DNA of 64,000 nt from Pseudomonas sp. 10S4. Lineage in GTDB: Bacteria; Pseudomonadota; Gammaproteobacteria; Pseudomonadales; Pseudomonadaceae. This document shows, in pieces, positions 7,638-54,094 of the stretch (the first letter of the stretch is position 1; each line of letters starts with the position of its first letter). The position numbers and the translations under genes were made by a program. The stretch lies in the NCBI RefSeq assembly GCF_034344865.1, contig NZ_CP133774.1, positions 6,448,001 to 6,512,000 of the forward strand, written 5' to 3'. The notes beneath the pieces were generated by a model. That model had not been told where the DNA came from, searched no databases, and worked only from the letters and a program-made list of their open reading frames with translations.

Positions 7638-8464
7638 TCACCCGTACAACGATGGCCGCCGATCCCGATGCAGGTCATTGCGCTCACTGATCCGCTTGTT
7701 CCGCGCCTCGGCCAGGTTCAACGTTGCCAGCAAAATCTGTTCGCCACCCTGCTCCGCCGGCCCCGCCAAGGGGTAACCATCGGCATCGACGATGACTGAA
7801 CCCTGCACCCAGCTGACGCCGCGCTCGTGGCCATGTCGGTCACAGGCGGCGACGAACATTCGGTTGACCGACGCATTAGCCTGGACCCGTACGACTTCTG
7901 CGGGGCGCTCGGTCAGCGGCCTCGGGCCGTCGGGCCAGTTGACCGGGGCGCAGAGCAAGTCTGCGCCGGCCAGTGCCGGGAGTCGCACCCATTCGGGGAA
8001 CTCCAGGTCGTAGCAAATCAGCATGCCGATGCGTCCGTGGACGGTTTCGACTACTGGCGGCGCGGCGGTGCCGGCGGTGAAAATCTCTCGCTCGGCGTCC
8101 CAGAGGTGCGCCTTGCGGTATACGGCGCGCAGGCCCTGAGCGTCGATCATCGCGGCGCTGTTGGCCAGTTCATTGCCCGCCAGTCGCTCGCAGAACCCGC
8201 CCACCACGACGATGTTCAGCTCCCGGGCGAGTGCCCCCAGCGTTGCAAAGTCGGACCTTCCGAAGTTTCCGATAAGGACAGTGCTTCGCGATGGTCGGCA
8301 AACAGGTAGCCGCTCTGCACCAGTTCTGGCAGGACCACCACGTGCGCGCCCTGGAGCGCCGCCGAACGAATCGCTCGTTCGGTCAACGTCCGATTGAACG
8401 TCAGGTCGCCTATTTTCGGTGCCAATTGGCAGCAGGCAACCACGGTCTGTTTTGCAGTGTTCAA
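7638..8464 (-). CDS. Carbon-nitrogen hydrolase (nitrilase superfamily), frameshifted
   Basis: Joining two frames gives a 275-aa amidase-type enzyme. The catalytic triad is visible: Glu in VVVLPELVQSGY, Lys in AVYRKAHLWDAE and Cys in GMLICYDLEFPEWVRLPA. The frame breaks at a CCCCC run (plus strand 8234-8238), where one more base restores TLQRWGALARELN. The start is a TTG at 8464 behind GGAGGAGGGG, overlapping the stop of the permease gene, so the two are translationally coupled. That coupling suggests the hydrolase acts on the amide or ureide that the permease imports. The family includes N-carbamoyl amide hydrolases and omega-amidases; the exact substrate is not determined by the sequence. 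Confidence 0.8.
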
Positions 8465-25530: not shown

Positions 25531-26532
25531 ATGGGTTTGTTAGTTGAAGGCCGCTGGCAAGACCAGTGGTATGAAAGCAGCAAGGACGGCGCGTTCCAAC
25601 GTGAACAAGCGCAGCGCCGCAACTGGCTGACCGCCGACGGCAAGCCAGGCCCGTCCGGTGTCGGTGGCTTTGCGGCCGAAGCCGGTCGCTATCACCTTTA
25701 TGTGTCCCTGGCTTGCCCGTGGGCCCATCGCACGCTGATCCTGCGCAAACTCAAAGGCCTCGACAACCTGATCGATGTGTCGGTGGTCAGTTGGCTGATG
25801 CTGGAAAACGGCTGGACCTTCGACCAGAACCTCGGCTCCACCGGCGACAAACTCGATCACTTCAATTTCATGCACCAACGCTACACCGCCGATACCGCCA
25901 ACTACACCGGCCGCGTCACCGTGCCGGTGCTCTGGGACAAACAGCAGAAACGCATCGTCAACAATGAATCGGCGGAAATCATCCGCATGTTCAACAGCGC
26001 CTTCGATGACCTGACCGGCAATGATCTGGATTTCTATCCGGCGCCGCTGCGGGGCGAGATCGATGCGTTAAATGAACGGATTTATCCGGCGGTGAACAAC
26101 GGCGTGTACCGCGCCGGGTTTGCCACATCGCAGACCGCTTATGAAGAAGCGTTCGATGATGTGTTTGCCGAGCTGGATCGGCTGGAGCTGCTGTTAGACA
26201 AGAACCGCTACCTGGTCGGTGAATACCTGACGGAAGCGGACATTCGGTTGTTCACCACGCTGATCCGCTTCGATGCGGTGTATTACGGGCACTTCAAGTG
26301 CAACCTGCGGCGAATAGCCGATTATCCGAACCTGTCGAACTGGTTGCGGGAAATGTATCAGTGGCCAGGGATTGCCGAGACGGTGGATTTTGAGCACATC
26401 AAGCATCACTACTACGGCAGCCACAAGACCATTAACCCGACGGGGATTGTGCCGAAAGGGCCGGCGCAGGACTTTACCGCGGCGCATGATCGGGCGCGGT
26501 TGAGTGGGAAAGGGGTTTGGCAGAAGCGTTAA
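25531..26532 (+). CDS. yqjG: Glutathionyl-hydroquinone reductase (YqjG/Xi-class GST)
   Basis: The 333-aa protein matches the Xi-class glutathione transferases that reduce glutathionyl-hydroquinones. The catalytic Cys lies in LACPWAHRTL (Cys at about 62), and the substrate/dimer segments YPAVNNGVYRAGFATSQTAY and GEYLTEADIRLFTTLIRFD are typical. It is cytoplasmic. The start is the ATG at 25531 after AAGGAGTC. It is a separate unit from the tus operon and ends at a long perfect hairpin. Confidence 0.92.
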   Translation: MGLLVEGRWQDQWYESSKDGAFQREQAQRRNWLTADGKPGPSGVGGFAAEAGRYHLYVSLACPWAHRTLILRKLKGLDNLIDVSVVSWLMLENGWTFDQNLGSTGDKLDHFNFMHQRYTADTANYTGRVTVPVLWDKQQKRIVNNESAEIIRMFNSAFDDLTGNDLDFYPAPLRGEIDALNERIYPAVNNGVYRAGFATSQTAYEEAFDDVFAELDRLELLLDKNRYLVGEYLTEADIRLFTTLIRFDAVYYGHFKCNLRRIADYPNLSNWLREMYQWPGIAETVDFEHIKHHYYGSHKTINPTGIVPKGPAQDFTAAHDRARLSGKGVWQKR

Positions 26533-26536
26533 GATC

Positions 26537-26613
26537 AAAAGATCGCAGCCTTCGGCAGCTCCTACATGGGATTGCGTAACCCTGTAGGAGCTGCCGAAGG
26601 CTGCGATCTTTTT
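26537..26613. repeat. Perfect 30-bp inverted repeat, probable bidirectional terminator
   Basis: AAAAGATCGCAGCCTTCGGC and the following 10 bases are exactly complementary to the right arm (26584-26613), with a 17-bp loop and A/T runs on both sides. It separates the convergent yqjG and cysG genes and belongs to the GCAGCCTTCGGCAGCTCCTAC repeat family. Confidence 0.85.
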
Positions 26614-38384: not shown

Positions 38385-40656
38385 TCAAGCCATTTCAGCC
38401 GTGGTCTCGAACTCGAAGGTCAACTCGCCGTCCTTAAGGTCGATGTGAACCACACCACCATGGTCAGCCAATTCACCAAAGAGAATCTCCTCAGCCAGCG
38501 GACGCTTGATCTTGTCCTGGATCAAACGCGCCATTGGTCGAGCGCCCATTGCCGAGTCGTAGCCACCCGCTGCCAGCCAACTGCGTGCAGCGTCGGTCAC
38601 TTCCAGCTGCACGCGCTTGTCTTCCAACTGCGCCTGAAGTTCGGTAAGGAACTTGTCCACCACGCTTTTGATGACCTCATGACTGAGGCGACCAAACTGG
38701 ATAATGGTGTCCAGACGGTTGCGGAACTCTGGCGTAAAGCTCTTCTTGATCACTTCCATCGCATCGGACGAGTGGTCCTGATGGGTGAAACCGATCGAAG
38801 CGCGGGCTGCGGTTTCGGCGCCGGCGTTGGTCGTCATGATGACAATCACGTTACGGAAATCCGCCTTGCGCCCGTTGTTATCAGTCAGCGTACCGTGATC
38901 CATGACCTGCAACAGCAGGTTGAACACGTCGGGGTGGGCCTTCTCGATCTCGTCGAGCAGCACATACGCAGTGCGGTTGCTTGGTGATGGCTTCGGTCAG
39001 CAGGCCGCCCTGGTCGAACCCGACATAGCCCGGAGGTGCACCGATCAGACGCGATACGGTGTGGCGCTCCATGTACTCGGACATGTCGAAGCGAACCAGC
39101 TCGATGCCCAGCGCCTTGGCCAACTGACGCGCCGCTTCGGTTTTACCGACACCGGTAGGCCCGGCGAACAGGAACGAACCAACTGGCTTGTCAGGCGACT
39201 TGAGGCCGGCACGGGACAGTTTGATCGCAGTCGACAACGAGTCGATCGCGGCATCCTGACCAAACACCGTCAGCTTCAGGTCACGCTCAAGGTTACGCAG
39301 CAGCTCTCTGTCGGAACTGTTGACGTGCTTAGGCGGAATCCGCGCGATTTTCGCGACGATGTCCTCGACCTGAGGCACTTCGATGCGTTTCACGCGTTTC
39401 TCGATTGGCTGCAGGCGCTGGTAGGCACCCGCCTCGTCGATAACGTCGATAGCTTTGTCCGGCATGTGCCGGTCATTGATGTAGCGTGACGCCAGTTCAG
39501 CCGCTGCACGCAGGGCTTCATCGCTGTACTCGATGCCGTGGTGCGTTTCGAAACGCCCTTTCAGGCCGCGCAGGATGCTGATGGTGTCTTCTACCGAAGG
39601 CTCCGACACATCGACCTTCTGGAAGCGTCGTGCCAAGGCACGGTCCTTCTCGAAGATCCCGCGGAATTCCTGGAACGTGGTCGAACCGATGCAGCGGATA
39701 TCGCCGGACGACAGCAACGGCTTGAGCAGGTTCGAGGCATCCATGACGCCACCGGACGCGGCACCCGCACCAATGATGGTATGGATTTCGTCGATGAACA
39801 GGATCGCCTGCGGACGTTTTTTCAGCTCATTGAGCAACGCCTTGAAGCGTTTCTCGAAATCACCGCGGTATTTGGTCCCGGCCAGCAAGGCCCCCAAGTC
39901 AAGGGAGTAAACCACGCTGTTGGCCAGCAGGTCCGGCACCTGATTGTCGACAATGCGCTTGGCCAGGCCTTCGGCAATCGCGGTTTTACCCACGCCAGCC
40001 TCGCCCACCAGCAGCGGATTGTTTTTGCGACGACGCGCCAGGATCTGCGCGACACGCTCGACTTCGAGCTCACGGCCTACCAGCGGATCGATTCGACCCT
40101 GGCGCGCGAGTTCGTTGAGGTTGCTGGCATAAGCATCCAGGGGATTGCCTGAAGAAGAAGACTCACCGCCCTCGTCGTCCTGCATATCTTGCTCACCTTC
40201 AGAGTGATCGCCGTGCCCCGGCACTTTGGAAATGCCATGGGCGATGTAGTTGACGACATCAATGCGGGCAACGCTCTGCTGTTTCAGCAGGAACACCGCC
40301 TGACTTTCTTGCTCACTGAAGATTGCGACCAGCACGTTGGCGCCAGTCACTTCGCGTTTGCCCGAGCTCTGTACGTGAAAGACAGCACGCTGCAGAACAC
40401 GCTGGAAGCCCAGGGTTGGTTGGGTCTCGCGATCCTCGTCATGAACGGGGATCAACGGCGTGGTGGAGTCGATGAACTCCTGCAGGTCATGCTTGAGTTT
40501 GTCGAGGTTTGCGCCGCATGCACGCAAAACGGTGGCGGCAGCCTCATTGTCCAATAGGGCCAGCAAGAGGTGTTCGACGGTCATGAATTCATGACGCTTC
40601 GAACGAGCCTCCTTGAAGGCTAGATTGAGGGTGACTTCGAGCTCGCGGTTTAACAT
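38385..40656 (-). CDS. clpA: ClpA ATPase of the ClpAP protease, frameshifted
   Basis: ClpA unfolds proteins for ClpP. The N-domain with two Clp repeats (residues 1 to about 145), first AAA module (Walker [31 protein letters not shown]) and second module (Walker [19 protein letters not shown]) are present. After [10 protein letters not shown] an extra base at about 38,964-38,966 shifts the frame, and [18 protein letters not shown] continues in the other frame to the normal end. Removing one base gives 756 aa, the family length. The 45 bases after the junction (GAC GAG ATC GAG AAG GCC CAC CCC) are richer in G/C-ending codons than the flanks. clpS, the N-degron adaptor, lies 30 bp upstream on the same strand. 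Confidence 0.92.
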
Positions 40657-43389: not shown

Positions 43390-45614
<2,225 letters not shown>

Positions 45615-48135: not shown

Positions 48136-49594
<1,459 letters not shown>

Positions 49595-52764: not shown

Positions 52765-54094
52765 ATGGCACTGACACGCGAACAGCAAATTGCAGCCCTT
52801 GAAAAAGATTGGGCTGAAAACCCACGCTGGAAAGGCGTGACACGCGCTTACTCCGCTGCTGACGTCGTCCGTCTGCGTGGCTCGGTTCAACCTGAGCACA
52901 CCTTTGCAAAACTGGGCGCCGAGAAGCTCTGGAACCTGGTGACCCAGGGTGCCAAGCCGTCCTTCCGTCCTGAGAAAGATTTCGTCAACTGCATGGGCGC
53001 CCTGACTGGCGGCCAGGCTGTACAACAAGTTAAAGCCGGTATCCAGGCGATCTACCTGTCGGGCTGGCAAGTAGCTGCGGACAACAACTCCGCCGAATCG
53101 ATGTACCCGGACCAGTCGCTGTACCCGGTGGACTCGGTTCCAACCGTGGTCAAGCGCATCAACAACTCGTTCCGTCGTGCTGACCAGATCCAGTGGAAAG
53201 CCGGCAAAGGCCCGGGCGACGAAGGTTACATCGACTACTTCGCCCCAATCGTGGCTGACGCTGAGGCCGGTTTCGGCGGCCCGCTCAACGCCTACGAGCT
53301 GATGAAGTCGCATGATCGAGGCCGGAGCGGCCGGCGTGCACTGCGAAGACCAGCTCGCGAGCGAGAAGAAGTGCGGCCACATGGGCGGCAAGGTCCTCGT
53401 CCCGACCGGCCAGCACATCCGCACCCTGAACGCCGCCCGTCTCGCAGCGGATGTCGCCGGCGTGCCGACGATCATCATCGCGCGCACCGACTGCCCTCGC
53501 CGCCACGCTCATCACGAGCGACATCGACGAGCGCGACCAGCGAGTTCCTCACCGGCGGGCGCACCGCGGAGGGCTTCTACGACACCCAGAACGGCATCGA
53601 CGTCGTCATCGCCCGCGGTCTCGCATACGCGCCGTACGCCGACCTGCTCTGGTGTCGAAACCGCCAAGCCGGACCTGGACGAAGCTCGTCGCTTCGCCGA
53701 AGCGATCAAAAAGGAATACCCGGACCAACTGCTGTCGTACAACTGCTCGCCTTCCTTCAACTGGAAGAAAAACCTGGACGACGCGACCATCGCCAAGTTC
53801 CAGCGCGAACTGTCCGCCATGGGTTACAAGCACCAGTTCATCACCCTGGCCGGCATTCACAACATGTGGCACAGCATGTTCAACCTGGCGCACGACTACG
53901 CCCGCAACGACATGACTGCCTACGTGAAGCTGCAAGAGCAAGAGTTCGCTGACGCTGCCAAGGGTTACACCTTCGTGGCTCACCAGCAGGAAGTGGGCAC
54001 CGGCTACTTCGACGACATGACCACCGTAATTCAAGGTGGCTCGTCTTCGGTCACCGCGCTGACCGGTTCGACTGAAGAAGAACAGTTCCACTGA
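52765..54094 (+). CDS. aceA: Isocitrate lyase, mosaic and frameshifted by four extra bases
   Basis: AceA splits isocitrate into glyoxylate and succinate (glyoxylate shunt). The first 170 codons ([20 protein letters not shown] on) and last 145 codons are normal Pseudomonas AceA. From about 53,280 to 53,655 the sequence changes: codons end in C or G, Leu is CTC and Val GTC. The protein there ([51 protein letters not shown]) reads like actinobacterial isocitrate lyase. Single extra bases at about 53,311 (C), 53,492 (T), 53,541 (C) and 53,655 (T) shift the frame at the edges and inside. Removing the four gives exactly 441 aa. The active-site KKCGH is kept. As printed it cannot make AceA; a chimeric or mis-corrected consensus is the likeliest cause. 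Confidence 0.85.

Follow-up and report, generated by a model that had tools for sequence, protein, structure and literature searches.

A Cryobacterium-like tract with four surplus bases in aceA of Pseudomonas sp. 10S4 suggests that the assembly was corrected with foreign reads

The window analysed in this study, a stretch of 64,000 nucleotides from Pseudomonas sp. 10S4 (contig NZ_CP133774.1, positions 6,448,001 to 6,512,000), carries an isocitrate lyase gene, aceA, which is broken into overlapping frames, as well as three further genes with smaller lesions (Table 1). With 1330 nt, aceA exceeds the 1326 nt (441 aa plus stop codon) obtained by reading out the intact frame in five relatives, and thus contains a surplus of four bases. 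When scored with the NF011645 profile, for which the cut-off is 562 bits, the open reading frames 52765-53952 and 53312-54094 reached 331 and 365.7 bits, respectively, so that no single open frame attains the score of a functional isocitrate lyase; with the TIGR01346 profile (cut-off 275.9) the second frame passes at 315.2 while the first fails at 246.8. The host ends and the donor-derived middle of the gene all read as isocitrate lyase by comparison with these two families, yet, unlike their members, the gene as written encodes no single continuous enzyme. A second isocitrate lyase above the TIGR01346 cut-off was not found in the genome, where two weak matches elsewhere scored 58.6 and 19.7 bits.

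Table 1. Position of the features within the window, and the observations by which they were defined.
Feature	Position	Strand	Basis
aceA (isocitrate lyase), broken, both ends host sequence	52765..54094	+	overlapping frames
Cryobacterium-derived tract in aceA with four extra single bases	53281..53655	+	site counts, 99% match to C. glucosi
Short Cryobacterium-like patch in clpA, one extra base at the edge (38965)	38925..38965	-	alignments, pattern search
Short Cryobacterium-like patch in purB, one extra base (48560)	48560..48609	+	alignments, pattern search
A run shortened by one base in the monomeric isocitrate dehydrogenase gene	44631..44632	+	comparison with relative G005

The middle of aceA differs markedly from its surroundings. 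Between 53300 and 53649, identity to seven aligned relatives falls to 0.54-0.88 in bins of 50 nt, in which two relatives compared with each other score 0.84-1.00. In the rest of the frame, identity to the seven relatives amounts to 84-100% per bin (a single bin against a single relative: 0.80), and outside the tract there is no indel with respect to the relative L009. A 150-nt scan of the window identified eight stretches with a GC content of at least 69%, and the highest peak belongs to 53265-53699 (0.727; median 0.593). In a three-way alignment with a host relative (G005) and Cryobacterium glucosi as parents, the tract carries the donor-type letter at 117 of 120 informative sites, the host-type sites being 53301, 53305 and 53344. 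Four bases of the tract correspond to a gap in both parents. They are located at 53311, 53493, 53541 and 53653 in this alignment and at 53308, 53492, 53542 and 53655 in comparison with one relative, a shift which reflects alignment ambiguity. Hence, the original prediction of an actinobacterial-looking high-GC segment of about 370 bp with four single extra bases was confirmed, apart from the proposal that the two internal extra bases mark joins, as donor sequence is found on both sides of each.

Searched on its own, as had been suggested, the tract found a match in all 15 Cryobacterium genomes that were picked by their 16S sequence: identity was 99% in C. glucosi (G044; locus L074), 96% in C. 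algoricola (G042) and 95% in C. breve (G038); three further genomes reached 86-88%, and the matches in the remaining nine were weak and mostly partial. The comparison of aceA with half of the C. breve genome gave 390 nt at 0.954. An exact 27-mer from the tract, which spans the host-type site 53344, had no match in public genome contigs.

The notion that clpA and purB are affected in a similar way also stands, with the same donor, albeit in the form of short patches (about 40 nt in clpA and 30-50 nt in purB). A 38-base stretch of clpA (38926-38963) occurs with two mismatches (36/38) in C. glucosi, C. breve and C. algoricola, two of which contain another site that differs at three positions; the clpA reading frames span positions 1-561 and 561-747 of the 758-position model. 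In purB, whose frames align with positions 1-112 and 109-455 of a 456-position model, donor-type sites extend over 48560-48589, followed up to about 48609 by letters common to host and donor. C. glucosi and C. breve both contain the 44-base stretch 48566-48609 exactly (44/44), and C. algoricola has it with one mismatch. The C. breve sites of both genes lie in the other half of its genome than the half first compared. At up to three mismatches, the two stretches were absent from the same-genus relatives G005 and G019, and a reversed control pattern yielded 0 sites. In the monomeric isocitrate dehydrogenase gene, of which the reading frame 43390-44883 covers positions 5-419 of 744 of TIGR00178, comparison with G005 revealed no donor patch at the shortened A run; this lesion looks like a residual homopolymer error of long reads.

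All six 16S rRNA genes of the genome (L002-L007) are hybrids of host and Cryobacterium sequence. About 280 nt match the 16S of the relative before the sequence switches, and one copy has one base missing. At sites informative between the relative and C. glucosi, all six copies have the host letter throughout positions 1-200 (78/78) and the donor letter throughout positions 301-900 (130/130); the host letter is again found at 28 of 32 sites in positions 1001-1100 and the donor letter at 46 of 49 sites in positions 1101-1400, while past 1400 the mixture of host and donor varies from copy to copy. The copies differ from each other mostly beyond position 1390, with the 3' end (1503-1510) among the variable parts. 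In the relative G005, the three complete 16S copies vary at one site. Two 100-nt segments of the 23S rRNA match Cryobacterium, whose loci cover only part of the 23S, at 94-98 of 100 positions, as compared to 81 and 89 for E. coli, which is at most suggestive of a donor contribution there.

A 48-base stretch of the genome's own 16S was present in 64 stretches of public genomes, including one Nocardioides MAG and one 'Corynebacterium-like bacterium'; most of the 64 come from genera of the Microbacteriaceae. Of the best 30 matches listed, 29 were Cryobacterium. Among the matches listed, seven Cryobacterium loci showed 1 mismatch in 680 positions and 3 in 345, and C. glucosi showed 1 and 4. By 16S, C. 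glucosi is therefore no closer than seven other loci, which fixes the donor to the genus Cryobacterium and not to a species. The foreign tracts at several unlinked loci, namely aceA, purB, clpA, acnA and the six 16S genes, are all explained by this one donor genus, which supports the earlier proposal that contaminant or reference-derived sequence has replaced conserved stretches.

The effect is also evident beyond the window, in acnA as well as in the six rRNA operons, and is accompanied by a second class of errors near homopolymers. The genome (G000) consists of one contig of 7.27 Mb with a completeness of 99.55 and a contamination of 1.23, and stands as the genome of one species in the searched set. 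A screen of 40 spaced 20-kb pieces and the window against half of the C. breve genome yielded two long tracts, that of aceA and one of 485 nt at 0.928 in L153. The latter is located in acnA (aconitate hydratase A; L153:17108-19632), which has several frame breaks. Shorter candidates comprise 42 nt exact in L160, 68 nt at 0.956 in L166, 35 nt exact in L155 and L153, and 30-32 nt exact in L158, L136 and L146; in a smaller E. coli control of 150 kb, the longest exact run reached 27 nt. When run at 88% identity over 60 nt, the screen returned no tract, as the alignments extended past the tracts, and stricter scoring together with scoring of sub-segments revealed those in aceA and acnA.

Reading frames from half of the C. 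breve genome were further compared with 864 kb of the 7.27-Mb host genome. A frame change was detected in 23 of 125 conserved-gene chains, as opposed to 0 of 34 in E. coli K-12 (150 kb, same procedure), and this survey undercounts, since it failed to detect the breaks already established in aceA, clpA and purB. As two of the 23 chains belong to acnA and three to carB (the third by position only), about 20 distinct genes are concerned. Among the breaks are those in carB, encoding the large subunit of carbamoyl-phosphate synthase (L146:13288-16467), and in leuC (L169:18685-19718). The leuC break adjoins a 23-nt exact match to C. breve. Exact donor runs of at least 20 nt were found within 60 nt of 4 of 29 break points, compared to 17 of 870 background tiles (the aceA and acnA tracts being part of this background), and runs of at least five identical bases occurred within 25 nt of 7 of 29 break points, compared to 101 of 1663 background windows. 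Overwriting is not the sole error class, as exact donor runs of 20 nt were lacking at 25 of the 29 break points; rather, the sequence points to two classes, donor patches and homopolymer-type errors free of donor sequence. Within the window, frame breaks at 8243 and 27127 are situated near five-base homopolymers with no long donor match, and are probably residual homopolymer errors.

We propose, with a probability of roughly 0.8, that a long-read assembly of the host was 'corrected' with reads of a Cryobacterium near C. glucosi and that conserved stretches were rewritten thereby. The chromosome would have been assembled from long reads, followed by correction of the consensus with reads of this other organism, most likely because a wrong short-read file was used. 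Donor reads would align at conserved stretches alone (rRNA, aceA, acnA, purB, clpA) and would place donor letters there; that only conserved stretches are rewritten would thus follow from foreign reads aligning only where both genomes are conserved. Where adjacent host and donor codons of aceA differ, an alignment might represent them by an insertion next to a deletion, and if the insertion was applied and the deletion skipped, one surplus base would remain at each of the four points. We infer a consensus or correction step, short reads, a swapped file instead of a mixed culture, and such insertion-only bookkeeping from what is directly observed: a single donor genus recurs at several loci, each 16S copy is affected (6/6), the four aceA bases are indels present in neither parent, and frame breaks are numerous. 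The homopolymer-linked breaks fit errors of long reads that were not corrected by accurate reads of the host itself. Several observations count against this proposal, among them the break points that lack a donor run and the 16S comparison, which does not single out C. glucosi. Host and donor are identical in 251 of 371 columns across the aceA tract (67.7%), which is low for one ordinary round of short-read mapping, so that overwriting must have begun at a conserved core and extended from there, which repeated rounds or local reassembly would make possible. In addition, the alignment used shows the donor letter at the extra base of purB, in contrast to the four surplus bases of aceA.

In a mixed culture, host reads and those of a co-isolated Cryobacterium would have been jointly assembled and corrected, with the donor prevailing over the host in conserved stretches, where reads of both kinds accumulate. 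This would also account for a single donor genus at the tested loci, and errors next to homopolymers would likewise be expected from mixed long reads alone. We nevertheless consider this scenario rather unlikely: donor letters at 130 of 130 sites in all six 16S genes would require that donor reads exceed those from six host copies, the genome consists of a single contig with a contamination value of 1.23, and patches of about 40-50 nt are better suited to short reads. True recombination between phyla, by which Cryobacterium segments were gained through gene conversion, agrees with the tract being bounded by host sequence on both sides and with replacement of the homologue in place. However, gene conversion would leave only letters of one or the other parent, and the four aceA bases occur in neither of those used, even if the true parents may differ slightly from C. 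glucosi and G005. Furthermore, frames are broken in aceA, purB, clpA, acnA, carB and leuC within one genome, and loss of purB and carB would block the synthesis of purines, pyrimidines and arginine; six 16S genes converted alike alongside broken purB and carB do not make credible biology, and recombination is regarded as highly improbable. Ordinary pseudogene decay of aceA through random frameshifts would be in line with its broken frame and with the lack of another site above the TIGR01346 cut-off in the genome, but can virtually be dismissed, given a tract 99% identical to a Cryobacterium gene within a frame whose identity to relatives otherwise stays at 84-100% in almost every bin, with no indel against L009.

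Correction with foreign reads remains the preferred explanation, and on sequence grounds the broken aceA is almost certainly an artefact of the assembly and not evidence of gene loss. The original caution that loss of the glyoxylate shunt should not be deduced from this copy therefore stands, and nothing follows with regard to growth on acetate, despite the lack of a second isocitrate lyase above the cut-off.

Two known problems of genome assemblies are related to the present case. GUNC uses the genes of a genome to assess whether its contigs are homogeneous in lineage (PMC8201837); the chimerism it addresses, as set out at the start of that report, likewise places sequence of two lineages in one assembly, whereas the foreign pieces described here are located inside genes, measure down to about 40 nt and replace the host homologue. 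Residual consensus errors of long-read bacterial assemblies are the target of Trycycler and subsequent polishing (PMC8442456), and, as far as the opening of that report describes them, resemble the frame breaks enriched near homopolymers in this genome, with the difference that here the correction step itself seems to be the source of sequence from another species. The titles and first lines of abstracts on correction with wrong reads, or of a matching study, did not yield this case, from which no absence is claimed. It might tentatively be speculated that wrong-read correction forms a recognisable error class in public genomes, in which conserved genes and every 16S copy are rewritten while quality scores stay good, although we would at present rather doubt than expect this. 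If true, species-representative genomes may hide hybrid 16S genes and false gene losses. In the present genome, a large part of every 16S gene is of Cryobacterium type and several central genes look broken, so that its use for metabolic reconstruction, as a 16S reference or for counting pseudogenes would mislead.

A further stretch of about 80 bases in the window (around 26529-26612) has dozens of matches in the relative G019 and few in G005, and, from this distribution, resembles a dispersed repeat whose copy number varies.
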